Notes under the pieces: model-generated
What the model was told of the DNA's origin: nothing
Seen by the model: the letters and a program-made list of their open reading frames with translations, nothing else
The model's database searches: none
DNA from: Pseudonocardiales bacterium
GTDB taxonomy: Bacteria > Actinomycetota > Actinomycetes > Mycobacteriales > Pseudonocardiaceae
NCBI GenBank assembly: GCA_003244055.1
Contig: QHBZ01000196.1
Span: 1-47,233, forward strand
Reading direction: 5' to 3'
Length of the DNA stretch: 47,233 nucleotides
Part shown: piece after piece, positions 14,613 to 43,508 of the stretch
How the letters are laid out: the number at the start of each line of letters is the position of its first letter
Position numbering within the stretch: the first letter of the stretch is position 1
Made by a program: the position numbers and the translations under genes

Positions 14613-14661
14613 GGTCCCAGCATCACCGGTAGCCGCGAGCAGAGCTAGCGAGAATGCGACA

Positions 14662-15540
14662 TCATGGGCAGACGCCCTGGGGGCATGCAGCGCTCATATA
14701 GCCTCCCCCGCACGCACCGCGGTGATCTTTGGCGATCTTCTCGAAGCCCCCGGTGATCATCAGCTGAGCCAGGCTCGTGTAGCGCTGGAAACGCAGCATC
14801 GGCGAATCGTCGACGATCTTCCCCGCTCGAGTGATGTAGCGCAGCGTGCCCACCGCCGCGTAGTCGAGATCGAGCCGATGCACGTACGGCTTGGCGAACG
14901 GCACCAATGCGAACATATGACGAAACGCGAGGCTCGGCGGCAGGAGCGGCACGATGTCGTCGGCATATTCGTAACGGATGCTCGCGATGTGTGCGTCGTA
15001 CGCGGCGGCGAAATCCTCGTTGCCGGGATGCGGCCCGGCGTAGGTGAAAACCTTTGCGTTCAGGCCGCGCTCGATCAGGAACCGCATCGCCGCAAGGTCG
15101 GCCATCGCGCCGCCCTTGCTGTGCCCGGTGACATAGACTTGACTCGTCGATCCGGCTTGGGTGAGCCTTCGCTGCACTTCGGGAACGACCTTGGCCCACA
15201 GGCTGTCCAATGATCCCCAGAAGCCGGAGTGCACGAGCCCCGGCAGCCCGGCGCCCCGCACCAGCTCGGCGTCCAGATCGTTGATCCAGTCGCGAATCGT
15301 CTGTTCCCAATCGGGACTGTCGAGAGGCAACGTCCCGCGGAAGGCGAGCATCACGCCATCGACCGTCGTACCGACGAGGCAGGCATTGATGGCATCGTTT
15401 CCGCCGACGAAGCCGACCGGGTCGTCGAGGAATTGGGACGCATCGAAATACGGCTGCGGTGGGGTGATCGGTCCGTCGTTGGTGATGGAATAAGCCGTCA
15501 TGCTCGCGCAGAGCAGCCGGCACTCAAGACTGGTCGACAT
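14662..15540 (-). CDS. Class 3 lipase-family hydrolase
   Basis: A 292-residue protein with an AGAGGA site before the ATG. The lipase_3 features are present: oxyanion strand GVMLAFRGTLP, the HSGFW region, the nucleophile elbow VYVTGHSKGGAMADLAA with Ser141, then FTYAGPHPGNEDF and the acid residue in EYADDIVPLLP. A His follows in the C-terminal part. No signal peptide is evident (MSTSLECRLLCASMTAYS). The C-terminus is Cys rich (GACGGGYMSAACPQGVCP), which is unusual for the family. Probable substrate is a lipid ester; specificity is unknown. Confidence 0.8.
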   Translation of the reverse strand: MSTSLECRLLCASMTAYSITNDGPITPPQPYFDASQFLDDPVGFVGGNDAINACLVGTTVDGVMLAFRGTLPLDSPDWEQTIRDWINDLDAELVRGAGLPGLVHSGFWGSLDSLWAKVVPEVQRRLTQAGSTSQVYVTGHSKGGAMADLAAMRFLIERGLNAKVFTYAGPHPGNEDFAAAYDAHIASIRYEYADDIVPLLPPSLAFRHMFALVPFAKPYVHRLDLDYAAVGTLRYITRAGKIVDDSPMLRFQRYTSLAQLMITGGFEKIAKDHRGACGGGYMSAACPQGVCP

Positions 15541-15650
15541 GATGCATCCTCTCCGTCGTTGAGGGCCGCCGTCGAGCCGGTCGCCCGCAGCGCGGAGGCT
15601 ACAGTTGCACAGTCACGTCCAGAGCAGCACACAGCCGAGGGAGACGACTC

Positions 15651-16472
15651 GTGGAGGACCGCCCGCCCGCGGCCGCGCGGGAGCCGCTGTCGGATATCGA
15701 TACCACGATTCCGCAACCAGCGCGGTTCTGGGATTACATGCTGGGCGGCAAGGACAATTACCCGATCGACCGCGAGGTCGGCGAGCAAGTCCTGAGAACC
15801 TTTCCCGATCTGCGTGACGCTGCTCGCGCCGACCGCGCGTTCCTGGTCAGGGCTGTCAGGTACCTGGTCGCGGAGGTAGGGATCCGCCAGCTGCTAGACA
15901 TCGGCACCGGGCTGCCCACCGTGAACAACACTCACCAGGTAGCCCAGGCGACTGCGCCGGAGTGCCGCATCGTCTACGTCGACAACGACCCGATGGTGCT
16001 GGTTCATGCGCGTGCGCTGCTTACCAGTACACCACAGGGCGTCACCGACTATCTTCACGCCGACGTGCGCGACCCGGAGAGAATCCTCGAAGAAGCTTCC
16101 CGGACGCTGGACTTCACCCGACCTGTCGCGCTCATGCTGCTGGGGGTGATCAACTATATTCTGGATGACGCCGAGTCCCATGCAATCGCCAACCGGCTCC
16201 TGGATGCGTTGCCTTCAGGAAGTTACCTGGCGATGTCCCACCCCACCTCAGAGGTTCACACCGAGGCGATAGAAACGTCCGTCCGGCAGTACAACTCCAG
16301 CGGCGCACCCCCGATCAAGACCCGCAGCCGCCAGGAACTCACCGTCTTCTTCGACGGCCTGGAACTACTGGAGCCGGGCGTGGTCTCGTGTTCGCTGTGG
16401 CGCCCTGACCCCCGCGAGGTCGGAACGCCCGCCGAGGTAACTCAGTTCTGCGGGGTCGCCCGAAAGCCTTGA
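15651..16472 (+). CDS. SAM-dependent methyltransferase, DUF574 family
   Basis: A 273-residue protein beginning with GTG after GAGGGAGACGACTC. The family hallmarks are clear: IPQPARFWDYMLGGKDNYPI near the N-terminus, LLDIGTGLPTVNNTHQVAQ as the SAM-binding loop, VYVDNDPMVLVHARALL, and PVALMLLGVINYILDD. DUF574 methyltransferases are abundant in filamentous actinobacteria and often lie near XRE/DUF397 pairs, as here; their substrates are not known. The gene converges on the XRE gene with the two stop codons directly abutting (TGATCA at 16470-16475). Confidence 0.92.
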   Translation: MEDRPPAAAREPLSDIDTTIPQPARFWDYMLGGKDNYPIDREVGEQVLRTFPDLRDAARADRAFLVRAVRYLVAEVGIRQLLDIGTGLPTVNNTHQVAQATAPECRIVYVDNDPMVLVHARALLTSTPQGVTDYLHADVRDPERILEEASRTLDFTRPVALMLLGVINYILDDAESHAIANRLLDALPSGSYLAMSHPTSEVHTEAIETSVRQYNSSGAPPIKTRSRQELTVFFDGLELLEPGVVSCSLWRPDPREVGTPAEVTQFCGVARKP

Positions 16473-17710: not shown

Positions 17711-18408
17711 CCGCCACCTCCTGTCGGCTCTGGTCGGCCGGCAGGCCCTCCAGAGCGGTCATAACGCCCGAAAATGATGCGCCCGACCATATATTAGATA
17801 TCAACAGTTCTTGCATCGGTACACGACGTTTGAGACGCTCGCGGAGGTGGCATTCCGGTGAATCACTTACCGTGGTTATTCACGAACAGGACGCGCTCGG
17901 GGAAATCACGATACGTGATCGGAGGAGTACCTACGCGTGAGTGGTGCGGATCAGGAGCACAGTGGCCCCAGCCGCTGGCGCTCGCGTTAAGTCAGCTGAT
18001 GCTGTTATCCGCTGACGCGGAGCCGCCAATCCAAATAAGCATAACCACGCGATCTCTGTTTGCTGCACGCATCGACCCTGCGGCCCTCAGCCGCGGCGTG
18101 CTGGGACGTCCTCCGCCGCTCATGCCCTCACGCAGCACCACAGGCAGACGGCACGGCACGGAAACGGGCTTGACCGCCATACTGGTGACCGGGAGTGTCC
18201 GCTCCCGGTCACCGACCCACTCACTCCCTGTATGCAAGACATCAGTGACGACGTGGTTGGCATGCCACTGGTTCGCCAGTCACTGAGTGTGCCTACCCGG
18301 ACAGCAGCCCGAACATCCCTGCGTCGCCAAGGATACCGATGCGAACTAAGAATTTCCTTATAACAGCCCCAGTCGCCGGCTGCTCTGCGGACACGGGAGG
18401 CTCTCGCG
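17711..18408. other. Gene-free interval
   Basis: No family-like frame was found on either strand in about 700 bp. There is a good ribosome binding site (GGAGGAG near 17922) followed by two very short frames (from 17938, 17 codons, and an overlapping frame of 23 codons), neither recognisable. AT-rich sequence near 17790 (ATATATTAGATATC) could be promoter for the DUF397 gene. A 12-bp perfect hairpin is listed separately. Confidence 0.45.
18184..18213. terminator. Perfect 12-bp hairpin, terminator-like
   Basis: GGTGACCGGGAG (18184-18195) pairs perfectly with CTCCCGGTCACC (18202-18213) around a 6-nt loop. There is no T-run on either side, which is common for actinobacterial terminators. It sits downstream of the molybdenum-storage pseudogene on the minus strand; it could also be a protein-binding palindrome. 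Confidence 0.45.
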
Positions 18409-19638: not shown

Positions 19639-20574
19639 ATGCGGGTCGCGGGTGTTACCGGGGCGCTGACGGCGATGTTGGTGACGCTGACGGCGTGCGG
19701 TGGTTCAGGCGGCGGCACAGCCGGCACCTCAAGCGGGCCGAAGGGTCCGGTGAAGGTGCTTTACGCCGGCTCGCTGGTCAACCTGATGGAGCACAGCCTC
19801 GGCCCGAAGTTCGAGCAGGCCAACGGGGACACCTTCCAGGGTTTCAGCGCCGGGTCCAGCGCACTGGCGACGCAGATCAAGGACAAGGTCCGCCAGGGTG
19901 ACGTGTTCATCAGCGCCAGCCCATCGGTCAACGAGACACTCCAGGGTCCGGTTAACGGCAACTGGGTGCCCTGGTACGTGAAGTTCGCCTCCGCGCCACT
20001 GGTGATCGGCTACAACCCCAACTCGAAGTTCGCCGCCGACCTGAAGTCCAAGCCGTGGTACCAGGTGATCACTGAGCCCGGCTTCAAGCTGGGCAGCACC
20101 GATCCCGCGGTCGACCCCAAGGGCAATCTCGCCCAGCAGGCTCTCACCGAAGGCGCCAAGATCTACAACGATCCAGGCCTGCCGGCCGCCGCGAAGCAGA
20201 ACATCACGGTGCTGCCGGAGACCGAACTGGTCGGCCGGTTGGAGTCCGGTCAGCTCGACGCCGGCTTTTTCTACAGCAACGAGGCGGGCGAGCAGAAGAT
20301 CCAGACTGCCAGCCTCGATCAGGTCCATCTGGCCGCCAGCTACACCGTGGCCGTGCTGAACATGGCCCCGGATCCCGGACCAGCCGCGGACTTCGTGCAG
20401 TACCTGGTCTCCCCGGAGGGTCAGGCGCTGTTGAAGCAGGACGGCCTGACGGTACTGCCGCTGACCCTCTACGGTGACCCGGCCGCAGTGCCACCGGCGT
20501 TGAAGTCGGTGCTGCCGACGACGGCAAGCGCCCCAGCCACTCCCACGACCAGTTCAGCGCCCGGCGGCCGATGA
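19639..20574 (+). CDS. modA: Molybdate/tungstate ABC transporter substrate-binding lipoprotein
   Basis: A 311-residue lipoprotein: signal peptide with lipobox LTAC (Cys20), Ser/Gly linker, then a type II periplasmic-binding fold: KVLYAGSLVNLMEHSLGPKF, FQGFSAGSSALATQIKD, GDVFISASPSVNETL, APLVIGYNPNSKF, LGSTDPAVDPKGNLAQQAL, DAGFFYSNEA. The AGS and SxPxxDP motifs contact the oxyanion in ModA/WtpA. The C-terminus is a Pro/Thr/Ser tail. It captures molybdate outside the membrane and delivers it to the fused permease-ATPase encoded next, whose start overlaps it by 4 bp (ATGA). Confidence 0.9.
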   Translation: MRVAGVTGALTAMLVTLTACGGSGGGTAGTSSGPKGPVKVLYAGSLVNLMEHSLGPKFEQANGDTFQGFSAGSSALATQIKDKVRQGDVFISASPSVNETLQGPVNGNWVPWYVKFASAPLVIGYNPNSKFAADLKSKPWYQVITEPGFKLGSTDPAVDPKGNLAQQALTEGAKIYNDPGLPAAAKQNITVLPETELVGRLESGQLDAGFFYSNEAGEQKIQTASLDQVHLAASYTVAVLNMAPDPGPAADFVQYLVSPEGQALLKQDGLTVLPLTLYGDPAAVPPALKSVLPTTASAPATPTTSSAPGGR

Positions 20575-22535
20575 CCGCCAGGCCAGCCGGGGGGGCGGCG
20601 CTCATCTTCCGTACCCCGCTGCCGTGGCTGGCCGGGCTGCTGACGCTATACCTGCTGGTCCCGATCCTTGCCTACGCGATCCGGGTGGCCGATACCCCGG
20701 TCAGCGCCCTCGCTGCCCCCGGGCTCGGTTCGGCGCTGGTGGTGTCGGTGGAGACGGCCAGCATCTCGACAGTGATCATCGCTGTGCTCGGGATCCCGCT
20801 GGGCTACCTGCTCTCCCGCGGTCGCGGGCGCACCTCGACGGTGATCGGGGTCGCGGTGCAGTTGCCGCTGGCGTTGCCACCGCTGATGAGCGGCATCCTG
20901 CTGATCTACCTGGTCGGCCCGTACACGTTTCTCGGGCAGGTCTTCCACGGCGCGCTGACCGACACCCGGATCGGCATCGTGCTGGCCCAGACTTTCGTCG
21001 CGGCACCGTTTCTGATCGTGGCCGCCCGCTCGGCGTTCGCCACGCTGGACCCGGCTCTGGACGACGTGGCCGCCACCCTCGGGCACGGCCGGTGGTCGCG
21101 GTTCGCCCGGGTGGCGGCCCCGGCCGCCACGCCCGGCATCGCCGCCGGTTTGCTGCTGGCCTGGCTGCGCGCCTTCGGCGAGTTCGGCGCCACCGTGGTG
21201 CTCGCCTACCACCCGTACTCGGTGCCGGTATTCACCTACGTGCAGTTCGGCGGGACCGGGATCACCTCCACGCTGACCGCGGTCGGGGCCAGCCTGGGCG
21301 CGGCCGCGGTGGTGCTGCTGCTGGCCGCATACCTACCCCGACTGCGCCGCCGGCACCCGGTGCCCGATCCGTTGCCGGAGCCGAGCGCCCCCAGCTCGTC
21401 CGCCAGCCCGCGGTTGACCTTCGACCTGGCCGGCCGGCTGGGAACGTTTCAGGTCGAGGTCGCACACACCACCACGACCGGTCGACACCTGGCCATCCTC
21501 GGGGCCTCGGGTTCCGGCAAGAGCCTGACCCTGCGGATGCTGGCCGGGTTGATCCGGCCCACTGCTGGTCAGGTGTGCCTGGACAGCGCCGATGTCACTT
21601 CCGTAGCGCCGGAGGACCGCGGGTTCGGCTACGTCCCGCAGGACGCCGCCCTGCTCCCCCACCTACCGGTGTGGCACCAGGTGATGTTCGGGGTCGGCAC
21701 CGAGCCGGGCCTAGCCGCCCACTGGATCAGGCGGCTGGGGCTGACCGGGCTGGAGAGCCGGTTGCCGTCGCAGCTGTCCGGTGGCCAGCGGCGCCGGGTG
21801 GCGATCGCCAGCGCACTGGCTCGCAATCCGCGGCTGCTTCTACTGGACGAGCCGTTCACCGGCTTGGACGCCCCGGTCCGCGACGAGCTGCGCCACGAGC
21901 TGCGCCGCCTGCAGCGCGACACCGCGATCACCACCGTCATCGTCACGCACGACCCGGTCGAGGCCGCGTTGCTCGCCGACGAGGTCCTGATCCTGGACTT
22001 CGGCCGGGTAGCACAGGGCGGCCCGCAGCCGGCGGTCTTCGCACATCCCGCCAGCCCGACCGCCGCCCGGTTGCTCGGCATCCGCAACCTGCACGTCGGC
22101 CAGCGGGCCGGCCACCGGGAACTGGTCGCCGGCCGGGTACGGATCAGCTTCGCGGCCTCCGCCCTGCCAGCTGGCACCGCCCTAGACGCGGAGCTGACCT
22201 GGTGCATCCGCCCCGAGAACCTGAGGTTGGACGACCCGGTGGAGGAGAACGCGGATGGACATCCCGGCACGGTCAATGACGTCGTCTCTCTCGGCGCGGT
22301 CGACGAAGTTCTGGTGGCCCTGGACGGTGGCCCCGAGCTGACCGCGCAGACCCCGGCCGGCGATCACCCGGAGCCCGGTGCCCGGTGCCGGCTCACCCTG
22401 CCGCCCGCCTCGGTGATCGTCTGGCCGGGTCGAAACATCCCGACCCCGGCCGGCGACTCGCCCGGTCGCCAGCGCACCACGGATTTCACCATGCCGGACC
22501 TCTACGACCTGTCCTCCACCCCACCACCCCGGTAG
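20571..22535 (+). CDS. modBC: Molybdate ABC transporter permease-ATPase fusion (ModB-ModC)
   Basis: A 654-residue fusion. Residues 10-265: ModB permease with about six membrane helices and the EAA loop (DDVAATLGHGRWSRFARVAA). Residues 285-500: ABC ATPase with Walker A LGASGSGKSLTL, Q-loop GYVPQDAALLPHL, signature LSGGQRRRVAIASALARNP, Walker B LLLLDEPFTGLD and H-loop VIVTHDPVEA. Residues about 505-625: TOBE-like domain (HVGQRAGHRELVAGRVRIS, WCIRPENLRL). The last residues, DFTMPDLYDLSS, are encoded in a stretch that is repeated at 22981-23049. Fusion fixes one permease to one ATPase; two copies should form the transporter. Confidence 0.93.
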   Translation: MTARPAGGAALIFRTPLPWLAGLLTLYLLVPILAYAIRVADTPVSALAAPGLGSALVVSVETASISTVIIAVLGIPLGYLLSRGRGRTSTVIGVAVQLPLALPPLMSGILLIYLVGPYTFLGQVFHGALTDTRIGIVLAQTFVAAPFLIVAARSAFATLDPALDDVAATLGHGRWSRFARVAAPAATPGIAAGLLLAWLRAFGEFGATVVLAYHPYSVPVFTYVQFGGTGITSTLTAVGASLGAAAVVLLLAAYLPRLRRRHPVPDPLPEPSAPSSSASPRLTFDLAGRLGTFQVEVAHTTTTGRHLAILGASGSGKSLTLRMLAGLIRPTAGQVCLDSADVTSVAPEDRGFGYVPQDAALLPHLPVWHQVMFGVGTEPGLAAHWIRRLGLTGLESRLPSQLSGGQRRRVAIASALARNPRLLLLDEPFTGLDAPVRDELRHELRRLQRDTAITTVIVTHDPVEAALLADEVLILDFGRVAQGGPQPAVFAHPASPTAARLLGIRNLHVGQRAGHRELVAGRVRISFAASALPAGTALDAELTWCIRPENLRLDDPVEENADGHPGTVNDVVSLGAVDEVLVALDGGPELTAQTPAGDHPEPGARCRLTLPPASVIVWPGRNIPTPAGDSPGRQRTTDFTMPDLYDLSSTPPPR

Positions 22536-23785: not shown

Positions 23786-24078
23786 TCTCGCTCAAGAATG
23801 GCGGCGGGATTCCTGTTCATTTCGGTGGGACAACACTCGCCCCTGAACGTGAACAGGACGAGTCCAGCAGCAGACGAGAAGATTGCGACCAACCCCACAG
23901 GGGACAGCCACTTTCTGAGGTGTTTGGCAATGCCGCACAGGTGGCGGCGCAGCGCGTCCACCTCATCGTCAGCTGTGGCCGGCCAGCGGTCGGACAGGGA
24001 CGCTGGTGCCCTCGCGCGGCGGGATCGGGCGCGTGGGGCCGCGGGTGGCTCTGTCGGGCTGCTATCCTCGCGACCCAT
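23782..24078 (-). CDS. Hypothetical single-span membrane protein containing repeat copy A
   Basis: A 98-residue frame from ATG at 24076-24078 (MGREDSSPTEPPAAPRARSR). The first 50 residues are Pro/Ala/Arg rich, then DDEVDALRRHLCGIAKHLRK precedes one hydrophobic span WLSPVGLVAIFSSAAGLVLF and a short tail. The span is encoded by dispersed repeat copy A. It overlaps the Ig-like gene start by 4 bp (GTGA), suggesting coupling, but there is no ribosome binding site and the start shares the palindrome CCATGG with the divergent DUF218 gene. It may be a real small gene or chance openness around the repeat. Confidence 0.35.
   Translation of the reverse strand: MGREDSSPTEPPAAPRARSRRARAPASLSDRWPATADDEVDALRRHLCGIAKHLRKWLSPVGLVAIFSSAAGLVLFTFRGECCPTEMNRNPAAILERE
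23824..23913 (-). repeat. Dispersed 90-bp element, copy A (upstream of the Ig-like gene)
   Basis: Read on the minus strand: AAGTGGCTGTCCCCTGTGGG near the start, TCGCAATC, then GTTCACGTTCAGG, with 45 nt from TGTGGGG to GTTCAC. It points toward the Ig-like gene, about 40 bp away. The element keeps an open frame for SPVGLVAIFSSAAGLVLFTF. Confidence 0.75.
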
Positions 24079-26807: not shown

Positions 26808-27854
26808 ATGCTGTTATCGGTCGTCGTCCCATGCTATGACGAGCAGGATGCGTTGCCCGACCTGGTCGACCAGTTGTTCTCGACGCTGGAGGCGGCGGAC
26901 GTCGATATCGAGATCGTACTCGTCGATGACGGCAGTCGTGACGGCACACGCCAGTCGATTCAGCGGCTGAGCGAGCAGGATCCCCGAGTCACCTACGTCT
27001 CCTTCAGCCGAAACTTCGTCAAGGAATCCGCGATGCTGGCCGGCTTGGTCTACGCCCGCGGCGACGCGGTCGTCCTCATGGACGCCGACCTCCAGCACCC
27101 TCCGCGCCTCATACTCGAGATGCTGGCGTTGCACCGGCAAGGGTACGATCAGGTGGTCGCGCGCCGGACGCGCGAAGGTGAAGGTTTCGGTCGGACCTTG
27201 CTGGCGCGCTTGTACTACCGGGTCGTGAACTCCCTCGTTGACGTGAACATGGAGGACGGCGTCGGCGACTTCCGACTTCTCAGCCGCCGCGCAGTGGACG
27301 CGCAGTGGACGCGCTGCTTCAAATGGGCGAGTACAGCCGCTTCTCGAAGGGCTTGTTCTCCTGGATCGGATTCTCGGTCGCCAGTCGATTACGAAAATAT
27401 CACCCGGCAGGGCGGAGGGGCGAGCAAGTGGTCTTTCCGCCGGTTGCTCAACTACGGCATCGACGGGATCATGTCGTTCAACGCCGCCCCGCTGCGCCTG
27501 TCCGTATATCTCGGCGCGGCCGTGACGATGCTATCGGTCGCATACGTGATCTTCCTTGTCATCGCAGGCCTGATCCAGGGCATCACGGTTCCTGGCTACA
27601 TCACACTCGTCGTGGCGGTCCTCGGCCTCGGTGGTCTTCAACTGCTTTTTCTCGGCGTGATCGGCGAATATGTCGGTCGCATCTACTACGAGACTAAACA
27701 GCGACCGCACTTCATCGTGGCCGAGACCAGCCACGTGACCGGGCCTCCAACTGCGGTGACTCGCACCCGCGCACACCCCCTCAGGATGCGCGTCACCAAC
27801 GGTAGCGTCCGGCACACAGACATGCCCGACAGGATGCCGGATTTCACGTCGTGA
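26808..27854 (+). CDS. GT2 glycosyltransferase (GtrB/DPM type) with an internal frame-scrambled segment
   Basis: A 348-residue membrane glycosyltransferase that should load a sugar onto a polyprenyl phosphate. Residues 1-165: GT-A domain with SVVVPCYDEQDALPDLVDQL, VLVDDGSRDGT and the DxD in LMDADLQHPP, then EDGVGDFRLLSRRAVDA. Residues about 225-290: two membrane helices. Residues 165-191 (QWTRCFKWASTAASRR and on) are out of frame: the neighbouring frame gives the expected LLQMGEYSRFSKGLFSWIGF. The cause is an 11-bp duplication at 27291-27312; frame is regained near 27382 before VDYENITRQGG. The loss of the conserved RFxKGLFSWxG loop probably impairs activity. TGATG overlap with the next gene. 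Confidence 0.85.
   Translation: MLLSVVVPCYDEQDALPDLVDQLFSTLEAADVDIEIVLVDDGSRDGTRQSIQRLSEQDPRVTYVSFSRNFVKESAMLAGLVYARGDAVVLMDADLQHPPRLILEMLALHRQGYDQVVARRTREGEGFGRTLLARLYYRVVNSLVDVNMEDGVGDFRLLSRRAVDAQWTRCFKWASTAASRRACSPGSDSRSPVDYENITRQGGGASKWSFRRLLNYGIDGIMSFNAAPLRLSVYLGAAVTMLSVAYVIFLVIAGLIQGITVPGYITLVVAVLGLGGLQLLFLGVIGEYVGRIYYETKQRPHFIVAETSHVTGPPTAVTRTRAHPLRMRVTNGSVRHTDMPDRMPDFTS
27291..27312 (+). repeat. 11-bp tandem duplication inside the GT2 gene
   Basis: GCAGTGGACGC occurs twice head to tail (27291-27301 and 27302-27312). Eleven bases shift the frame by two; a change near 27380 shifts it back. Confidence 0.9.
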
Positions 27855-28333
27855 TGCCATTACGCCTCCACCTGCCACCACACGCCAGCAGGTTCGCGGT
27901 GGCTGGTGCAATCAACACCGGTGTCTACTACGGCCTGTACCTGCTCCTACATACGGTCCTGCCGTACCTCGCCGCGCACCTGATCGCGATCTTCATCGCG
28001 ATGGTCGGCTCCTTCTTCCTGAACTGCCACTGGACCTTCCAGACCCCACCGACATGGCGCAAATTCGCTCTCTTCCCGCTGACGAACGCGACGAACTACA
28101 TCGTCACAACCCTGGGCGTCGTCGTGCTCGTCGAGTGGTTCGGCGTCGACGAACGCGTGGCACCACTCCTCGCAGCGGTCGCCGCCATCCCGGTTACGTT
28201 CGTACTCTCACGGCGGGTACTCACAGGCCCTCACAGGCCGAGTCGGTTGCGCCCGTTGCACCGGGGACACGTCCTGATGCGGGGTAAGACGGTGTTGCTC
28301 ATCCCCTCACCCTGGCCTTGGTCCTCGACCTGA
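27854..28333 (+). CDS. GtrA-family membrane protein
   Basis: About 159 residues from the ATG at 27854, which overlaps the GT2 stop (TGATG). Four membrane helices: FAVAGAINTGVYYGLYLLLH, YLAAHLIAIFIAMVGSFFLN, ATNYIVTTLGVVVLVEWF and VAPLLAAVAAIPVTFVLSRR. The HWTF motif after helix 2 (NCHWTFQ) and the final FVLSRRxxF-like end fit GtrA/DPMS_2, proteins thought to flip or hold polyprenyl-linked sugars. Normal family end is at SRRVLTG; the last 30 residues (RPLHRGHVLMRGKTVLLIPS) are atypical. It probably works with the adjacent GT2. Confidence 0.88.
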   Translation: MPLRLHLPPHASRFAVAGAINTGVYYGLYLLLHTVLPYLAAHLIAIFIAMVGSFFLNCHWTFQTPPTWRKFALFPLTNATNYIVTTLGVVVLVEWFGVDERVAPLLAAVAAIPVTFVLSRRVLTGPHRPSRLRPLHRGHVLMRGKTVLLIPSPWPWSST

Positions 28334-28348
28334 GAAGTGTGACCCTCG

Positions 28349-28553
28349 ATGCTGGTGATCCTTTATCTCCTGTTGTCGTTCCTGGCGGCGCTCGTCATCG
28401 TCCAACGTGTCTTCGCCGAGTTCCCCATCTTCGTGCGGCTCGTCGGAGCCTTCGCGGTCAGCATCGTGCTCACCGGCTGGGTGAACTTCGCTGCGGGATG
28501 GCTGATCCACAGCCTCGGTCGCAGCGACGCAACGTTATGGCGCCTTCGTCGCG
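28349..28553 (+). pseudogene. N-terminal part of the following GT-C-like protein, separated by a frameshift
   Basis: From ATG the frame gives MLVILYLLLSFLAALVIVQR, then FAEFPIFVRLVGAFAVSIVL and TGWVNFAAGWLIHSLGRSDA: two membrane helices that fit the start of the next gene. Near 28535 the frame changes; the alternative frame continues YGAFVAMGANALII into the 28554 gene. One base difference would join them. Confidence 0.65.
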
Positions 28554-30533
28554 ATGGGAGCCAACGCGTTGATCATCGGACTAGGTCGGCGGGAATTCCG
28601 GCGCGCCGCATTCCGCGTACAGCCGCTCGCGATACTAGGCGTCGGTTCGGCCTTGGCGTTGTCCGGCTGGGTGATGCACACGCGCCTGTCCGGCGAGCCG
28701 CTCACGGTCGCAAACAACACGTGGGCAGACACCGCACTCCACATCGGCATTGCGCGATCGTTCTCCGAAGGAGACAACTTCCCGCCTGCGCTCCCGGTAT
28801 TCAGCGGGGAGACGATCCGCTACCACTTCGGGTTCGACTTCTACGCCGGCGCGCTCGAACGGATGGGACTGCCGATCGAATGGGCGTTCAATTTGCCCGG
28901 CGCGCTGGGATTCACCGCGATTATGGTACTTGTCTTCGAGTTCGCATACTACCTCTGGCGGCGGATTTCGATCGGCGTCATCGCTGTGGTTCTCTTCGCA
29001 ACCAACGGCTCACTCGCCTTCCTCCGCTACTTCAGCAGCTACCCTTCGGTAATCGAGGCACTGAAGCCCTCGAACTGGTGGAATCACGGCCAGTACTTGG
29101 CGACCGCTCCGTATCAGAGTGGCGAGCCGATATCGATCTTCTGGACGCTGAACCCCTACCTCAACCAGACCCACCTCATCGTGTCGATGGTCGTCGCACT
29201 GTTCGTCGGCTATGGCCTACTCCGGCATCTGCGCGGGCCCGGCGGTATCGCTGGGCATCCCCTTGACGCGTTTGCGGACGAGAACCATCGCCTGCCCCTC
29301 ACTCGGGAGCGCGCCTTAGCCCTCGGTCTGCTCTCGGGAGCAGGATTCTGGCTCAACGGGATTGTCTTCGTGGCGTCCATGATCTTCTTCTGTGTGCTCC
29401 TCTATCTCTACAGCGGTCACCTGCGGAGAGTGGCTGTGCTCACCGTCGTGCTGGTGTCGGGGTCAGTGACCCTGTTTGTGGTGGGCGCGTTCGAGCAGAG
29501 CGACGGGATCCGCAAGGTGGCGCTACTGCTGCTGATCGGCGTTCTCGTGCTGTTGGGACCCGTTCGCGAGTCGCTGCCATTCTTCGCCACCGCGAGTGTC
29601 GCCGCGCTCCCCCAGATGATCTGGCTCAATGGCGGTCTCGGCACGAAGGGCGTACTCAGCTTCCACAACGGCTACCTCGTCGACAACTTCCGCTTCCAGA
29701 ACCCTGCGTCGTACCTGGATTTCGTCACCTACTGGTGGCTCAACCTCGGTCTTGTCGTCCCGCTCGTCGTCCTGGCGGCCGTCGTCGGGCGCAGAGCCGA
29801 CCGCAAACTGCTAGTGGCCATCATGGCGATCTTCGCCTTCGGCAACGTCGTGGCCGTCGGCCTCGATATCGGCGGACACGGCCACAAGGTCTTCAACCTG
29901 TGGGAGGTCCTGGTCAACCTCTTCGCCGCCTACACCCTCGTCTTCGGGGCACGCATGCTGTGGCACGGTCTCCCGGTGCGGAACCGGCGACTAGGCCTCC
30001 TCGCGGGACGCGGCATCGCCGTCGCGGTAGTCCCGGCGGCTTGCATCGTCCTGGTGCTTTCCGGGCTCCTCGACTTCATGACACTCAAGAACGACTCCCG
30101 ATTCGGGGTGTTCGGCAGCGACTGGCAGCCTGCTATCAGCTGGATCGAGAACAACACGAGCCGGGACTCGGTGTTCCTCACCGCGTACGACGACGTCTAC
30201 ACGATCCCCACGCTCGCTGGCCGGTCCGTGTACTTCGGTGGGTTCTCTGGCTGGTCTGAGGGCATGGGATACGACATCATGTCGCGGGAGCGGAGGATCG
30301 CGAGCATCTACTCCGCACCGGATCAGGCAGCGGCCTGTGAGCGCATGCGAGGCACCGGCGTCGACTACATCCAGGTCGGTGACGGGGAGACCAAACCCGA
30401 TCGCTTCCCGCAGCGCAACCCTCATCTTTTCCCGGGGAATTTCATCCGCGTCTACTCGGATGCCCACTTCTCCTACTACGACGTCAGAGCGTCCTGCAAG
30501 ACCGGCACGATTACGGGGAGCAGAGGAACCTGA
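28554..30533 (+). CDS. Large multi-span membrane protein, GT-C glycosyltransferase-like
   Basis: At least 659 residues, longer if the upstream frame is joined. Many membrane helices in the first 470 residues, then a C-terminal soluble domain. The first loop carries NTWADTALHIGIARSFSEGD and RYHFGFDFYAGALERMGLP, resembling the acidic first loop of GT-C enzymes. The C-terminal part has WIENNTSRDSVFLTAY, then TLAGRSVYFGGFSGW and GVDYIQVGD. The minus-strand protein at 32787-34688 has the same layout (WADFGLHSAIISHF; LAGRSAVLGYTGWLYSYN; PDYLLVG), so the two are paralogues. A polyprenyl-phosphate-sugar-dependent transferase of the envelope is inferred. ATG at 28554 is probably internal to the original gene. 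Confidence 0.75.
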   Translation: MGANALIIGLGRREFRRAAFRVQPLAILGVGSALALSGWVMHTRLSGEPLTVANNTWADTALHIGIARSFSEGDNFPPALPVFSGETIRYHFGFDFYAGALERMGLPIEWAFNLPGALGFTAIMVLVFEFAYYLWRRISIGVIAVVLFATNGSLAFLRYFSSYPSVIEALKPSNWWNHGQYLATAPYQSGEPISIFWTLNPYLNQTHLIVSMVVALFVGYGLLRHLRGPGGIAGHPLDAFADENHRLPLTRERALALGLLSGAGFWLNGIVFVASMIFFCVLLYLYSGHLRRVAVLTVVLVSGSVTLFVVGAFEQSDGIRKVALLLLIGVLVLLGPVRESLPFFATASVAALPQMIWLNGGLGTKGVLSFHNGYLVDNFRFQNPASYLDFVTYWWLNLGLVVPLVVLAAVVGRRADRKLLVAIMAIFAFGNVVAVGLDIGGHGHKVFNLWEVLVNLFAAYTLVFGARMLWHGLPVRNRRLGLLAGRGIAVAVVPAACIVLVLSGLLDFMTLKNDSRFGVFGSDWQPAISWIENNTSRDSVFLTAYDDVYTIPTLAGRSVYFGGFSGWSEGMGYDIMSRERRIASIYSAPDQAAACERMRGTGVDYIQVGDGETKPDRFPQRNPHLFPGNFIRVYSDAHFSYYDVRASCKTGTITGSRGT

Positions 30534-32786: not shown

Positions 32787-34688
32787 CTACCGGAACTCCT
32801 GACTTGCCTTGGTGCTATCGGGGGCAGCTCCGGCCAGCCGGTACATCGTCCATTCCGCGTTGTGATAAGCGACCGGAAGCCGCGCAAGCGAGCTGCGGTC
32901 GATCGTCCATGACTTGTCTTCGTTCACGCCGACGAGCAGATAATCGGGGTGGAACTTGCGCACCATCGGGTCGTCGATCCGTCCCTGGAGCGCCGCGGTG
33001 ACCGCGGCCACCCGGTCCGCGTACGGCAGGTTGTAGCTGTACAACCAGCCCGTATAGCCCAGCACGGCCGACCGCCCGGCCAGTGTCGCGACCGGCTGCC
33101 CGGGACGGTCAGCGCCGATGAATACGGCGTCGGGCGCGGTGTGGGCGCGGACCCAGCCGGCGAGCGCCACGTCGGAGGTGGAGGCGAACTGGTCGCGCTG
33201 TTGGAACTCGTGGGTGACAGACAGCAGCCCCGGGATCGCCACGATGAGCCCGATCGGCAGCACCGCCGCGAGATTCCAGCGGCTCGACCGGTAGGCCTGG
33301 ACGGCGAGGAAGCCGGCGAACAGGCAGGCCATGAGGTAGACATAGTTGATCAACTTGAGGTTGTCGTACTCGAATGGCTGGAACGCATACACCTGGGTGA
33401 CGGCGAGGATCGCCAGGAAGGGCAGGTACCACACCAGGTAGTGTCGCCAGGCTGGCCGCAGCAGCAGGAACGGCAGGGCGACGAACAAGATGCCCATCAG
33501 GCCGAAGTTCGTCCACCAGAAGGCCCAGATCGACTCGTCCGCGCGCTGCGCCCACCCGAGCCGCCACCGTCCCCCAGTACCACCGCCGTTCGCCAGCTGT
33601 TGCCACGCCAGCTGCGGCACGGCCAGGACGATGGCGCCCACCCCCGCGGCCAGGTGGCCCCAGGGCGGCTGGCGCAGACGGAAGGCGGCCTCCACGGTGA
33701 GGGCGACGAGCACAACTCCACAGATGATGAAGGTGTGCGGGTGGGCCATCGGTAGCAGGCCGATCAGCGCGCCGCTGACGAACAGGTATCGCCGCTCGCC
33801 GGTATGCCGGGCGGTGTGGAGCAGGATCAGCACGGTCAGCCCGACGCCGAACCCGAAAAGGATCGCGCGCTGCGGCAACAGGGTAGTCGTGACGAGGTTG
33901 GTGACCTGGCCGTTCTCGGCGTTGAGCACGGTGTAGTCGCGCGGCAGGTCGGAGAGGAAGTCTGGCAGGCTCCGGCCGCTGTGTTGCCAATCGACGTAGG
34001 CGAGGCGCAGGCCGGCGGCCGAACCCATCAGCAGAAACAAAGAGAGGCCGCCGACGGCGGCGCCGACGTGGCCGAACAGTCGCAGGCTGAATGACAGCAG
34101 CAGTTGGCAGATGGCCAGCGCCAGCAGGACACCGGGCAGGAAGAGGCTGAGGTGAAGGCTCCAGCCGTCGCGGAGGTAGAGGGCCGACAGGAAGTCGATG
34201 AGGAACGGGTAAGTCAACTTCGCCCCGCTCGCGACCGGCAGGTCCAGTTGCAACCGGTCGAGCACCGCGAAGTGGCTGATGATGGCCGAGTGCAACCCGA
34301 AGTCGGCCCAGGTCGACCCGGCGGAGTACACCCCGGTGGAGTCCCGCAGGAGGCTGTGTGTCCAGAAGAGCCGGCCGAGCACCGCTGTGGTGACCAGGCT
34401 GGCGGCCCCCCACAGGATCCAACCGGATCGGCCGCCCTCCAGCGGGCGCCATTGCGGCCGACGTGGCTGCCACAACAGTACGCAGGCACCGGCGCTGAGG
34501 CCGATGGTGAGCGGTATCGCGAAGTGATACGGCAGCACCAGAGCGGTGAGGAACGCCAGCCAGGTCCAGCCAAAGAGACCGATCACCACGGTGAGCGCCG
34601 CGGCCTCGAAGAAATAGAGCGGCAGCTTGAGCCACCCGACCACGGACGCACCGAGCAGCAGAGCGGAGACGAACAGGATCAGCGCCAT
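32787..34688 (-). CDS. Large multi-span membrane protein, GT-C glycosyltransferase-like
   Basis: A 633-residue protein with about 12-13 membrane helices followed by a soluble C-terminal domain of about 130 residues. The first loop STWADFGLHSAIISHFAVLD and the middle LTYPFLIDFLSALYLRDGW parallel the 28554-30533 protein, as does the C-terminal LAGRSAVLGYTGWLYSYNLP and KFHPDYLLVGVNED. It is probably a polyprenyl-linked sugar transferase or arabinan/mannan assembly protein; the acceptor cannot be told. Its start overlaps the end of the PMT gene by 10 bp and ubiA follows directly, so the three form one operon. Confidence 0.8.
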   Translation of the reverse strand: MALILFVSALLLGASVVGWLKLPLYFFEAAALTVVIGLFGWTWLAFLTALVLPYHFAIPLTIGLSAGACVLLWQPRRPQWRPLEGGRSGWILWGAASLVTTAVLGRLFWTHSLLRDSTGVYSAGSTWADFGLHSAIISHFAVLDRLQLDLPVASGAKLTYPFLIDFLSALYLRDGWSLHLSLFLPGVLLALAICQLLLSFSLRLFGHVGAAVGGLSLFLLMGSAAGLRLAYVDWQHSGRSLPDFLSDLPRDYTVLNAENGQVTNLVTTTLLPQRAILFGFGVGLTVLILLHTARHTGERRYLFVSGALIGLLPMAHPHTFIICGVVLVALTVEAAFRLRQPPWGHLAAGVGAIVLAVPQLAWQQLANGGGTGGRWRLGWAQRADESIWAFWWTNFGLMGILFVALPFLLLRPAWRHYLVWYLPFLAILAVTQVYAFQPFEYDNLKLINYVYLMACLFAGFLAVQAYRSSRWNLAAVLPIGLIVAIPGLLSVTHEFQQRDQFASTSDVALAGWVRAHTAPDAVFIGADRPGQPVATLAGRSAVLGYTGWLYSYNLPYADRVAAVTAALQGRIDDPMVRKFHPDYLLVGVNEDKSWTIDRSSLARLPVAYHNAEWTMYRLAGAAPDSTKASQEFR

Positions 34689-36184
34689 GAATCCAGCCAG
34701 ATTCGGGCGGACAGGCCGCCGTCACTGAGTGGGAGCCCGTAAGAGATCGGCGCGAAGAACACGAAGCCTGCCAGCGCGACCGCGAGAATGCCCCAGTAGA
34801 GAACCGCCGAACGCCGCGAGGGGAACTGCCATACCTCCTCGCCGTCGGTCATCCAGCCCGCCAGCGCACCTATCCCGATACTGACCGCGGCGATGCTGAA
34901 AAGGAAAGCGAAGAAGTAGTGGTAGAGGAACATCGGCCTGACGATGCCGGCGAACGGCAGGAAATTGGCTACCCACGCGACGCCGAGCAGGGCCATCGCC
35001 CCGCGATGCCGATCGAAGAGCGCCGGGCGGCGCATCCAGCCCAGCGCGACCACGACCGCGCCCACCAGTAGACCCCACCAGACGACCGGGTTGCCCTGGA
35101 GGTAGATGTACTCCTTCGGGCCGGTCCAGTAGTAGACGGGGCGCTTCAAGAACGGCCAGCTCAGCCAGCTGGAGCTGTACGGGTGATGGCTGTTGTCGAG
35201 CGAGATCTGAGCGGAGTTCATCGCCTTGTTGAGGTCGATGAAGCGGTCGAGAAACGACACTCTGGCAGCCGGGTTGTAGCTGGCGTTGCCGACCAGGGTG
35301 GACTGGAAGCGCTGGGACATGAATGCATCGCCTGGACCGCTGTGGGGAAGCAGCTGGAAATGGATGGCGAAGACGCTGACGTAGACAAGCGCCGGGACAA
35401 GGACGAGGACGGCCGCCTGGGGGATCGCGAGCCGCCAGCCGACCCGCTGCCGCAACGTCTGGGCGAACCACACGAGCCCGATCAGACCGAGTGCTGTCAG
35501 GCCGGACCACTTGGTGCTGGCAGCCATGCCGGCTAGGACAGCGCTGGCGGTCAGCAGGATCCAGTGCGCCCGTCCGGTGCGGCGCCGGGACGCGAGGTAG
35601 CAGGTGACGGCACTGATGCCGAACAGCAGCAGCATGCTGTCGACGAGGATGAGCCGGGACTCGACGAGGATCGCGTTGTCCAGCAGCACCAACGCCGCCC
35701 CGAACGTCGCCACCCGACGGCTGGCGGTCAGCTCACGTAGCAACAGGTAGAACACCGCCACGAGTGCAGTGCCGGCCAGCGCCGGCAGTACCCGCAGGGC
35801 CACCGCGGGATCGTGGGACTGCACCGTGGCGGAGACCCCGAACAGCTTCGCCCAGCCGGCCAGCAGGAGCTTGCCCAGCGGCGGGTGGATGTCGAAGTAG
35901 TACGAGCCGTCCAGGTAGCGCAGCGCGTACTCCCGGAACCACACCTCGTCGAAGACGATCGCCCGCGGGTGGGTGATCGCCGAAAGGCGGGTCACCGCGG
36001 CGAGGAAGGTGAGCCAGACGAGCTCCGGGGGCACGTTCAGCCGCCGCCGACCTGCCGTAACGCTCTGCGGAACATCCTTCTTGACGTCGGTCTTGTCAAG
36101 GGTCGTCACGCGCTGGGCGGGAGCCCGTTTGGTCGGGCGCTCGACGGGCCAAGAGCGGAGCGAACCTGCCACGCGACACTCCAT
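34679..36184 (-). CDS. pmt: Protein O-mannosyltransferase (PMT, GT39)
   Basis: A 501-residue GT-C enzyme that transfers mannose from polyprenyl-phosphate-mannose to Ser/Thr of exported proteins. The catalytic loop is intact: HPRAIVFDEVWFREYALRY with the Asp-Glu pair, then DGSYYFDIHPPLGKLLLAGW. Eukaryote-like PMT features follow: DNAILVESRLILVDSMLLLF, STKWSGLTALGLIGLV, SLDNSHHPYSSSWLSWPFLK, RPVYYWTGPKEYIYLQGNP and LYHYFFAFLF. About 11 helices; the length matches mycobacterial Pmt. TAGGGA precedes the ATG at 36184; a GTG at the TTLDKTDVKK position is an alternative. Likely substrates in this window are the Ser/Thr/Pro-rich exported proteins at 42-45 kb. Confidence 0.93.
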   Translation of the reverse strand: MECRVAGSLRSWPVERPTKRAPAQRVTTLDKTDVKKDVPQSVTAGRRRLNVPPELVWLTFLAAVTRLSAITHPRAIVFDEVWFREYALRYLDGSYYFDIHPPLGKLLLAGWAKLFGVSATVQSHDPAVALRVLPALAGTALVAVFYLLLRELTASRRVATFGAALVLLDNAILVESRLILVDSMLLLFGISAVTCYLASRRRTGRAHWILLTASAVLAGMAASTKWSGLTALGLIGLVWFAQTLRQRVGWRLAIPQAAVLVLVPALVYVSVFAIHFQLLPHSGPGDAFMSQRFQSTLVGNASYNPAARVSFLDRFIDLNKAMNSAQISLDNSHHPYSSSWLSWPFLKRPVYYWTGPKEYIYLQGNPVVWWGLLVGAVVVALGWMRRPALFDRHRGAMALLGVAWVANFLPFAGIVRPMFLYHYFFAFLFSIAAVSIGIGALAGWMTDGEEVWQFPSRRSAVLYWGILAVALAGFVFFAPISYGLPLSDGGLSARIWLDSWR

Positions 36185-36503: not shown

Positions 36504-37799
36504 GTGACGAAGAATCCACCCACCGCTACAATCGCGGCGTTGACATTCCCCTTTACTGTTTCCAACGTGACCACCGGAAATCTCGCCCGGGCCGACACCT
36601 CCGGCGCTCGACAGCCGCCTGCGTTGTCGCCCGTTGTCGACATTGTCATTCCGGTGTACAACGAGGAAACCGATCTCGAGCCGAGCGTGCGACGGCTGCA
36701 TGAGCACCTGAGCGCCGGGGTCCCATACCCGTTCCAGATCACCGTCGCCGACAATGCGAGCACCGACAGCACGCTCGAGGTCGCCAACCGGCTGGCCGCG
36801 GAGTTCCCGTCGGTACGGGTCGTGCATATGCCGGAAAAGGGCAAAGGCCGCGCGCTGCGCGCGGTCTGGTCGACGTCAGATGCGGCCATCCTGGCCTACA
36901 TGGATGTCGACCTGTCAACCGATCTCGCGGCCGTGCTGCCGCTGATCGCGCCGCTGGTCTCGGGACACTCCGACCTCGCCATCGGAACGCGGCTGCACCG
37001 AGGCTCGCGCGTCGTGCGCGGCGCGAAACGGGAGTTCATCTCGCGCAGCTACAACCTGATGCTCCGGCACACGCTGTCCACCCGTTTCTCCGACGCGACG
37101 TGCGGGTTCAAAGCCATCCGGCAGGAGGTTGCAGCCCACCTCCTGCCGCTGGTCGAGGACAACGGGTTCTTCTTCGACACCGAGCTGTTGGTCCTCGCCG
37201 AGCGCAGCGGGCTGCGCATCCACGAGGTCCCGGTCGACTGGATCGACGACCCGGACAGTCGCGTGCACATCGTCAGCACCGCGAAGGCCGACATCCGGGG
37301 GATCGTCCGGCTGGCCCGCGCGCTCGCCACCGGGAAACTGCCCGTGCACGATCTGCGTGCCCAGCTGGGCCGGGCCCCGCTGGAGCCGGCGACCCCGGGC
37401 GTGCCGCCGGGGTTGACCCGCCAACTGGTGCGCTTCGGCGCCGTCGGGGTGTTCAGCACGGTGGCCTACCTCGTCCTGTTCGTCCTCCTGCACCACCCAC
37501 TCGGCTCGCAGGGCGCCAACGTGGTGGCCCTGCTGAGCACCACCGTCGTGAATACTGCACTGAACCGGCGCTTCACCTTCGGGGTGGTGGGACGCCAGCG
37601 CAGGACGCGACAACAGCTCCAAGGACTGATCGTCTTCGGCCTGGCCCTGCTCCTGACCAGCGGCACGCTGGCCATGGCGCATTTCTTACACAGCGCGCCA
37701 CCGCCCTGGCTCGAGCTCGCGCTACTCGTCACCGCCAACGCCGCCGCCACGTTGCTGCGGTTCCTGCTGCTGCGCCGCTGGGTCTTCCGCACAGCCTGA
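36504..37799 (+). CDS. GT2 glycosyltransferase-GtrA fusion (polyprenyl-phosphate mannose synthase-like)
   Basis: A 431-residue two-domain protein. Residues 40-285: DPM1-type GT2 with VDIVIPVYNEETDLEPSVRR, TVADNASTDSTLEVA, MPEKGKGRALRAVW, the DxD in AYMDVDLSTDL, IGTRLHRGSRVVRGAKREFI, DATCGFKAIR and FFFDTELLVLAERSG. Residues 300-431: GtrA-like four-helix domain (LVRFGAVGVFSTVAYLVLFV, NTALNRRFTFG, RFLLLRRWVF). It should make a polyprenyl-phosphate sugar, probably mannose, and help present it across the membrane to the PMT and PIG-V-like enzymes nearby. Start could also be the GTG at 36567, since the first 40 residues are variable. Confidence 0.92.
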   Translation: MTKNPPTATIAALTFPFTVSNVTTGNLARADTSGARQPPALSPVVDIVIPVYNEETDLEPSVRRLHEHLSAGVPYPFQITVADNASTDSTLEVANRLAAEFPSVRVVHMPEKGKGRALRAVWSTSDAAILAYMDVDLSTDLAAVLPLIAPLVSGHSDLAIGTRLHRGSRVVRGAKREFISRSYNLMLRHTLSTRFSDATCGFKAIRQEVAAHLLPLVEDNGFFFDTELLVLAERSGLRIHEVPVDWIDDPDSRVHIVSTAKADIRGIVRLARALATGKLPVHDLRAQLGRAPLEPATPGVPPGLTRQLVRFGAVGVFSTVAYLVLFVLLHHPLGSQGANVVALLSTTVVNTALNRRFTFGVVGRQRRTRQQLQGLIVFGLALLLTSGTLAMAHFLHSAPPPWLELALLVTANAAATLLRFLLLRRWVFRTA

Positions 37800-38710: not shown

Positions 38711-38995
38711 ATGACGACGCCGGCGGAGATCGAGCGCAAGGTTAGACAGCTCGACAATGACGTCCAGTCGATCTATGAGATGTTGGCTGAGATCGCGGCG
38801 ACCCAGCGTCGGCAAGGTAACCGGTTGATGGAGATTGCCAGCAAGCTGACCGAGATGGACGACACGCTGACCGGGACGGACGGCAAGGTCAGCGAGATGG
38901 ACGCCAAGGTCACCGGGACGGACGACAAGGTCACCGAGATGGACGGCAAGCTGGACACCATCCTCGGTTTGCTGCGCGGTGGTCAACCCGGCTGA
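38711..38995 (+). CDS. Small heptad-repeat coiled-coil protein
   Basis: From the ATG at 38711 (MTTPAEIERKVRQLDNDVQS) 94 residues. After EIAATQRRQGNRLMEIASKL the sequence is a run of exact 7-residue units: TEMDDTL, TGTDGKV, SEMDAKV, TGTDDKV, TEMDGKL, DTILGLL. Alternation of (T/S)EMD and TGTD units is also visible in the DNA as 21-bp repeats. Hydrophobic residues fall at fixed heptad positions, so a parallel coiled coil, perhaps trimeric, is likely. No signal peptide. Function not recognised; the periodicity suggests recent expansion. Confidence 0.7.
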   Translation: MTTPAEIERKVRQLDNDVQSIYEMLAEIAATQRRQGNRLMEIASKLTEMDDTLTGTDGKVSEMDAKVTGTDDKVTEMDGKLDTILGLLRGGQPG

Positions 38996-42209: not shown

Positions 42210-43508
42210 TCACGGTTTGAACGCACTCATCGGCGTCGGAGTGGTCGTCGGCGAGGGTGGCGTTGGTGCCGGCTCGATGGTCGGGGTGGGGGTCGCTGGC
42301 GGCGATGGGCTGGTGGTCGTTGGCGATGGTGACGGCGAACTGGTTGTCGTGGGCGGTGGCGTCGTCGTGGGCGGCGGCGTTGACGTGGGCGGCGGCGTTG
42401 ACGTGGGCGACGGCGTGGTCACCGGTGGCAGTGGTGACGCACTCGTGGTCGTCGTGGGGGGTGTCGTTGTGGTCACCGGCAACGGTGGCGGAGTCGTTGT
42501 CATGGTGGGGGGAGCCGGGGCGAGCGGCGCGGGTTGGGTAGTGGCTATTGGTGCGAGCGCTGCTAGCAGGGAAGCGTCCGTAACGAGGGTGCGGCCGCCG
42601 TTGCCGGTAGTTCCCGGCGGGATCGGTCCGGGTGCGGACGGTGTCGGGGTGACGCCGGTCAGGTAGGCATGGGCCCACTGCAGCACGATGTCGACGTAGG
42701 TTGTGGAGTGGTTGTAGCGGAAGACAGCCGCTTGCTGCTGTGCCGGATCGGCGAGGTCGGTGCCTGCGGAGCACAAGTAGATGCCAGTGGTGATGGTGGC
42801 GTCATAGATGTTGTTGGGGTTGGCGACACCGTCGCCGTTGCCATCGACACCAAAGGCACGCCAACTGGCGGGGATGAACTGCATCGGGCCCACCGCTCGA
42901 TCCCAGACCGGGTCCCCATCCAACTGACCATGGTCGGTGTCGGAGATGGCAGCGACGCCCGGCGAACCGTCCAGCCGTGGGCCCAGGATCGGTCCCAGGG
43001 TGTTACCGAAGGCATCGAGGCGCCCGTCGCTGGCATGATTGGACTCGATACGCCCGATCCCGGCCAACACCGACCACGACAGGTGACAGCCCGGCCGGAT
43101 GGCCGCCAAGGTCCGCTGGGCGAACTGGTAGGCATCAAGCACCACACCCGGGATCCCTAGCGGTCCATCGGGCAGGTTCGGTGGAGTCGGGATCCCCGCT
43201 GGCGGGGTGCTGACGGGATCACCCGACACCGAGCCCGGGGCCACCCCGTCACCAGGCAGCGCTGCACTGGGAACGGCGTCGCTGGTCATCGGGTCGGCAG
43301 GCAGCGTCCCGGTGACCCCGAGCCCAGCTGGATCTGCGAGACGGCCCACGGGATACCCGTCAACGGTCGATACCGGGGCACTCAGGATCGCGACCGGCAC
43401 CCCCACGCTGAGGAGCAGACCGATCAAGGCCACGACCGCCCGGGTGCGGCGCCCGTGCACCACCAGCCGCGGTGCAGGTGGGTGGTCGATGCGGTGGCGG
43501 GGGGTCAT
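42210..43508 (-). CDS. Secreted lytic murein transglycosylase with Pro/Thr-rich tail
   Basis: A 432-residue exported protein. Signal-anchor: TRAVVALIGLLLSVGVPVAI. Catalytic domain, residues about 125-275: LSWSVLAGIGRIESNHASDG with the catalytic Glu, then RAVGPMQFIPASWRAFGVDG, NGDGVANPNNIYDATITTGI, YLCSAG and QQAAVFRYNHSTTYVDIVL. This is the actinobacterial MltB/SLT-like arrangement that cuts peptidoglycan between MurNAc and GlcNAc. Residues 300-432 are a long Pro/Thr/Ser tail (TTPPTTTTSASPLPP and similar tandem units), an obvious substrate for O-mannosylation by the PMT in this window and a likely wall-spanning spacer. Confidence 0.9.
   Translation of the reverse strand: MTPRHRIDHPPAPRLVVHGRRTRAVVALIGLLLSVGVPVAILSAPVSTVDGYPVGRLADPAGLGVTGTLPADPMTSDAVPSAALPGDGVAPGSVSGDPVSTPPAGIPTPPNLPDGPLGIPGVVLDAYQFAQRTLAAIRPGCHLSWSVLAGIGRIESNHASDGRLDAFGNTLGPILGPRLDGSPGVAAISDTDHGQLDGDPVWDRAVGPMQFIPASWRAFGVDGNGDGVANPNNIYDATITTGIYLCSAGTDLADPAQQQAAVFRYNHSTTYVDIVLQWAHAYLTGVTPTPSAPGPIPPGTTGNGGRTLVTDASLLAALAPIATTQPAPLAPAPPTMTTTPPPLPVTTTTPPTTTTSASPLPPVTTPSPTSTPPPTSTPPPTTTPPPTTTSSPSPSPTTTSPSPPATPTPTIEPAPTPPSPTTTPTPMSAFKP

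Follow-up and report, generated by a model that had tools for sequence, protein, structure and literature searches.

A compensated double frameshift in a GtrB-like glycosyltransferase gene of a Pseudonocardiales bacterium, probably within a recently inactivated operon

Introduction

In three-component systems of lipid-linked glycosylation, GtrB loads a sugar onto undecaprenyl phosphate, GtrA probably aids membrane crossing, and a GT-C enzyme passes the sugar on. On a contig of a Pseudonocardiales bacterium (QHBZ01000196.1, assembly GCA_003244055.1) we found a GtrB-like GT2 gene in which the reading frame is lost at a short tandem duplication and regained a little downstream, and the question is what such a full-length gene with one frame-born segment represents. 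A preliminary description of the locus had considered the change either tolerated or even selected, or else a reversible slipped-strand switch. The question has practical weight because a compensated double frameshift can go unnoticed in annotation, where the full-length gene looks intact: here an automatic pipeline would report a normal GT2 protein, despite a lost conserved segment and a broken gene in the same operon. Should the product prove active, the gene would offer a rare case of a frame-born segment within a conserved catalytic domain. Throughout, the window is the whole stretch of DNA analysed, 47,233 nucleotides in length. It comes from a single genome, a draft of 4.63 Mb in 379 contigs that is 94% complete. 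The features discussed are listed in Table 1.

Table 1. Positions of the features discussed, numbered along the window
Feature	Position	Strand	Details
GtrB-like (polyisoprenyl-phosphate glycosyltransferase) GT2 gene with the scar	26808..27854	+	348 aa
Codon 71 of the GT2 gene	27018..27020	+	Gly in 108/110 loci (window counted), Val in the window
Exact period-11 run	27288..27314	+	27 nt, 2.45 copies, 11 nt above relatives
27 codons in shifted frame, residues 166-192	27303..27383	+	By alignment
Junction lacking 2 nt that relatives have, where the frame is regained	27383..27384	+	By DNA alignments
GtrA partner gene	27851..28333	+	PF04138, E 4.5e-24; ends overlap with GT2 gene
Large membrane protein gene (GT-C-like), broken	28349..30533	+	Parts 28349-28533 and 28536-30533 in different frames
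PMT-type mannosyltransferase gene	34679-36184	-	Adjoins the fused GT2-GtrA gene
Gene for fused GT2 and GtrA domains, one protein	36504-37799	+	Conserved in G005 and G006

Results

The GT2 gene encodes a GtrB-like protein

The GT2 gene product contains a PF00535 domain (Pfam, E 2.1e-32), and its nearest solved relatives, by sequence and by fold, are the GtrB structures 5EKP and 9NYC. The features by which the GtrB family is recognised, namely a GT2 domain, a DxD motif and transmembrane helices, are all present, and by alignment the protein keeps the DxD motif together with the equivalents of GtrB R122, R125, D157 and R200. GtrB of Synechocystis (sll0501) requires R122, R200 and D157 for activity (PMC4728340). 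The window protein resembles it in its GT-A domain, two C-terminal transmembrane helices, DxD motif and R122, D157 and R200 equivalents, and a GtrA gene adjoins in the window. Unlike GtrB, it has no counterpart of GtrB residues about 169-192, and the Gly71 position is occupied by Val. The best NCBIfam model over the whole length was PgfS (NF047588, E 4.2e-93), but the score of 312 lies below the curated cut-off of 500 (G005 scores 374) and the name was not assigned.

Among 61 genomes searched, the closest relative of the gene is in G005, a genome of the same genus, with 74% amino acid identity over the whole protein. At E <= 1e-30 the gene is present in 2 of the 11 genomes of the genus, the window's own counted, and neither of these two carriers has a second copy at that threshold. 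Members of the genus can evidently do without it.

An 11-nt duplication and a 2-nt shortfall together preserve the frame

The first frame change lies at an exact tandem duplication of GCAGTGGACGC at 27291-27312, just where the preliminary description had placed it. The duplication is part of a longer period-11 run composed of two copies of CGCGCAGTGGA plus CGCGC, which occurs once across the 4.63-Mb genome; ten first-order Markov versions of the window contained no exact tandem units of 11 nt or longer. DNA alignment to G005 places 11 additional nucleotides in the window at 27288-27314. Two CGCGC 5-mers lying 11 nt apart bound the duplicated unit, an arrangement typical of substrates for strand slippage, and slippage between them probably produced the gain. 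Elsewhere in the genome, a sample of 210,879 nt contained 4 short exact tandem repeats with a unit length that breaks the frame, compared with 2 in the window; the excess is not clear, and such repeats were dropped as a peculiarity of the genome.

The return of the frame about 70 bp further on, also described previously, coincides by alignment with a junction that lacks 2 nt present in the relatives. The two indels (+11 and -2 nt) sum to a net +9, each of them breaking the frame and the two together keeping it. No stop codon arises, and from either end the protein follows its reference up to the indels, departing from it only in the stretch that they enclose, according to both the alignment and the phase run, which bears out the earlier view of a full-length product with one replaced segment. 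As the preliminary description had proposed, relatives were aligned: in nine rows comprising the window, G005 and seven loci from further genera in the family, all 8 relatives carried neither indel, indicating that the state in the window is derived. The 2-nt loss was probably an event separate from the duplication, either before or after it. It may have restored the frame by chance, as about a third of random second indels would; alternatively, the restoration could have been a partial rescue preserving the membrane helices.

An exact 12-nt direct repeat, CGCCAGTCGATT, is present at 26949-26960 and 27379-27390, its second copy spanning the 2-nt shortfall. An equally long repeat across the 27383/27384 junction appeared in 5 of 3000 codon shuffles, and 2.2% of the junctions in the GT2 gene have a repeat as long as this one. 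A template switch was considered as the source of the 2-nt loss and is suggestive, but it was chosen post hoc, and GTCGA.TAC at that place is ordinary family sequence in the relatives; the repeat may be due to chance, and the template switch was rejected.

The replaced segment and Gly71 are conserved in the family

Residues 166-192 of the window protein, 27 in all, stand in for 24 conserved family residues. The preliminary description was thus right that the stretch is read in the wrong frame, while its length of 26 residues needed correction. It had also noted family sequence in the neighbouring frame, and this older frame does still encode LLQMGEYSRFSKGLFSWIGFSVA across the segment. In a phase scan against the relative the off-phase run extends over 27299-27383, with 86% DNA identity. 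An open shifted frame is unsurprising here, since 46-57% of 87-nt stretches in the GT2 gene are open when shifted.

Six residues show no variation across the 28 aligned relatives (a chosen set, G005 plus 27 of the loci) and are all lost in the window: E171, R174, F175, G178 and G184 within the segment, and G71 upstream of it. Among the full 110 loci, which were assembled from sets of 30 and 80, take in the window and G005 and include 4 without coverage of the segment columns, E171 was found in 101, R174 in 100, G178 in 97, W182 in 99 and G184 in 102. The window protein thus lacks the family-invariant E171/R174/F175/G178/G184 segment expected of a functional GtrB. The Gly71Val change lies in the SRNFGKE motif and is unique to the window.

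Alignment to Synechocystis GtrB, in which G005 residues 119-197 equal the GtrB numbers minus 3, places the replaced segment at approximately GtrB 169-192, between the putative catalytic D157 and the acceptor-loop residue R200. Phe178, Met179 and Phe183 of GtrB, which fall within the replaced stretch, are named in interface-helix packing (PMC5526996). GtrB was the best match of the AlphaFold models of both the window protein and G005. In the window protein model pLDDT drops below 50 at residues 170-186, and in that of G005 only the C-terminal tail does so. Overall pLDDT is alike (77.9 for the window protein, 77.2 for G005); with both models equally good overall, the predictions say little about function. 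The product probably has little or no activity, since it lacks the segment between D157 and R200 that would pack on the interface helices and the Gly71 of SRNFGKE is now Val.

Frame breaks cluster in the GT2 gene and its two downstream neighbours

The phase scan covered 25 window genes, each compared with one genus relative, over 29,188 aligned nt, and such a scan against relatives reveals hidden double-frameshift cases. Off-phase runs of at least 20 nt occurred in 5 of the 25 genes. Two of these were set aside as lying at the extreme 5' end of a gene: the run at 24049-24071, where the gene start was cut during analysis, and that at 36504-36547, where the G006 relative starts at 36540. The other three genes, GT2, GtrA and GT-C, are mutual neighbours; three genes hit among 25 would adjoin by chance with a probability of 0.01, a post hoc figure. 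No internal frame break was detected by the scan in the 22 other window genes. Further frame differences were not counted as window breaks: at 16476, 36549 and 42222 another relative matches unbroken, the difference at 14665 is probably an antisense shadow frame, and that at 18269 is weak.

From about 28242 the frame of the GtrA tail differs from that of G005, following a 1-nt difference. This tail is poorly conserved, and either of the two versions may be the derived one. The gtrA gene also contains an exact 10-bp tandem repeat at 28220-28239. It was considered as another duplication and dropped, as it aligns to G005 without a gap.

In the GT-C-like gene, a single 733-aa frame of G009 is matched by two separate parts, 64 residues from 28349 and a frame of 659 residues from 28554, with 66% identity for the first part (residues 1-56) and 65% for the body. 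The two parts also match one 726-aa frame in G037, with one TGA noted inside the body match. The G009 relative has weak similarity to chlor_Arch_YYY. By DNA alignment the gene has a 2-nt shortfall near 28534, and the off-phase run covers 28349-28533. Both halves have a dN/dS near 0.20 relative to G009, suggesting that this break is recent too. As expected of a decaying operon, there is more than one probably disabling lesion, and the lesions extend to operon partners: Gly71Val and the scar in the GT2 gene and the GT-C break, along with the GtrA tail shift, which may be ancestral or derived.

Substitutions follow the older reading frame

The window and G005 are separated by 13 differences over the 86-nt stretch that the indels enclose. 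By codon positions 1, 2 and 3 these fall 3/1/9 in the older frame, at least 9 of 13 at third positions having a binomial P of 0.009, and 1/8/4 in the current frame; the corresponding counts for the 5' part of the gene are 20, 7 and 57. The third-position bias suggests that the segment was under constraint in its older frame until recently, for nearly its whole history. Judged by this pattern, the double indel is young.

Relative to G005, dN/dS is 0.093 before the segment, 0.121 within it when the older frame is used, and 0.213 from its end to codon 305. These values (0.09-0.21) are similar to those of neighbouring genes and show none of the relaxed constraint of a pseudogene. At family-conserved columns outside the segment, 5 changes are unique to the window, Gly71Val included, and 5 are unique to G005. 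The low dN/dS and the equal numbers of changes suggest that decay, if real, has only begun; taken at face value, the dN/dS would fit only a very recent loss.

Discussion

The locus is probably best read as a recently inactivated lipid-linked glycosylation operon, in which either chance or a partial rescue restored the frame of the GT2 gene. The double indel would then be a real and recent frameshift scar in a gtrB-gtrA-GT-C operon that the lineage is losing. Since the GT-C gene, two genes downstream of the altered GT2 gene, is broken as well, the whole pathway is probably off in the source genome. Lipid-linked sugar supply may nevertheless persist in part: the fused GT2-GtrA gene elsewhere in the window has no internal frame break against its relatives, which suggests that this supply is probably not wholly lost.

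The event itself, if real, is a frameshift scar, of a type already described and longer than most. The ScarTrek analysis of M. tuberculosis (PMC8339072) lists 74 unique scars in 48 genes from 5977 isolates, the two-indel scars mostly having less than 10 nt between their indels. The window case is like these in its two indels of a length not divisible by three, the changed residues between them and the dispensable gene. It differs in coming from one draft genome rather than a population with reads, in the distance of 70-95 nt between its indels, in the absence of a conserved catalytic-domain segment and in the broken partner gene. In animals, frameshifting mutations that compensate each other in pairs have been reported (PMC8935012), and there too a second nearby indel restores the frame. 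Those pairs are seen between species and have persisted for long, unlike the recent bacterial case here.

A less probable but serious alternative, of a kind already named in the preliminary description, is a local assembly or consensus error, in which all four frame-changing differences (+11, -2, -1 and -2) would be spurious and the real genes intact. All four fall within 1.25 kb (27288-28534) of one contig, the genome is a draft of many contigs, and the older frame is well preserved. On the other hand, an exact 11-nt duplication and 2-nt losses outside homopolymers are atypical of sequencing errors. The substitution pattern is also normal, with dN/dS in and after the segment like that of the neighbours, and frame-breaking short exact tandem repeats are present elsewhere in the same genome.

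That function was kept, the first indel acting as a knockout and the second being selected because it restored enough activity, we regard as unlikely. The frame does come back within about 70-95 nt, the protein retains its catalytic residues and, outside the segment, its predicted fold, and pairs of this kind are known from the M. tuberculosis scars and the animal examples cited above. Against this, five invariant residues are gone, Gly71 is replaced, and nothing compensates for the break in the GT-C gene; moreover, most of the two-indel scars described for M. tuberculosis change little, whereas 27 residues are affected here. The same losses, together with the break in the next-but-one gene of the operon, argue against the earlier suggestion of a tolerated or selected change.

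We consider it very improbable that the double indel is a fixed functional replacement, with the frame-born 27 residues serving a working GtrB of changed specificity, and slightly more improbable still that the loop swap was selected for a new donor or acceptor specificity. The full-length frame is open and the remaining fold is predicted to be intact. Yet the differences counted by current codon position give no evident selection on the new frame, the segment is predicted to lack confident structure and the operon GT-C gene is broken.

The least credible reading is a reversible slipped-strand switch through the copy number of the 11-nt unit: the 27-nt run could slip, but it holds only two copies of the unit, the duplication is absent from all 8 relatives, and with n units the frame is displaced by 11(n-1), which puts the loop in the family frame at n = 1, 4, 7 and so on and, given the downstream 2-nt shortfall, the C-terminal half at n = 2, 5, 8 and so on, never both and hence never a functional protein. 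Nothing supports a loop that is selected or switching.

Other features of the window

A 654-aa protein encoded at 20571-22535 (+) is a fusion of permease (PF00528), ABC ATPase and TOBE domains, and its gene is preceded by one for a solute-binding protein at 19639-20574. The window also contains two frame-keeping tandem arrays, one of 21-bp units in 5.3 copies at 38842-38953 and one of 18-bp units in 4.3 copies at 42343-42420. At 14645-16472, open frames overlap on both strands and match relatives in different frames.
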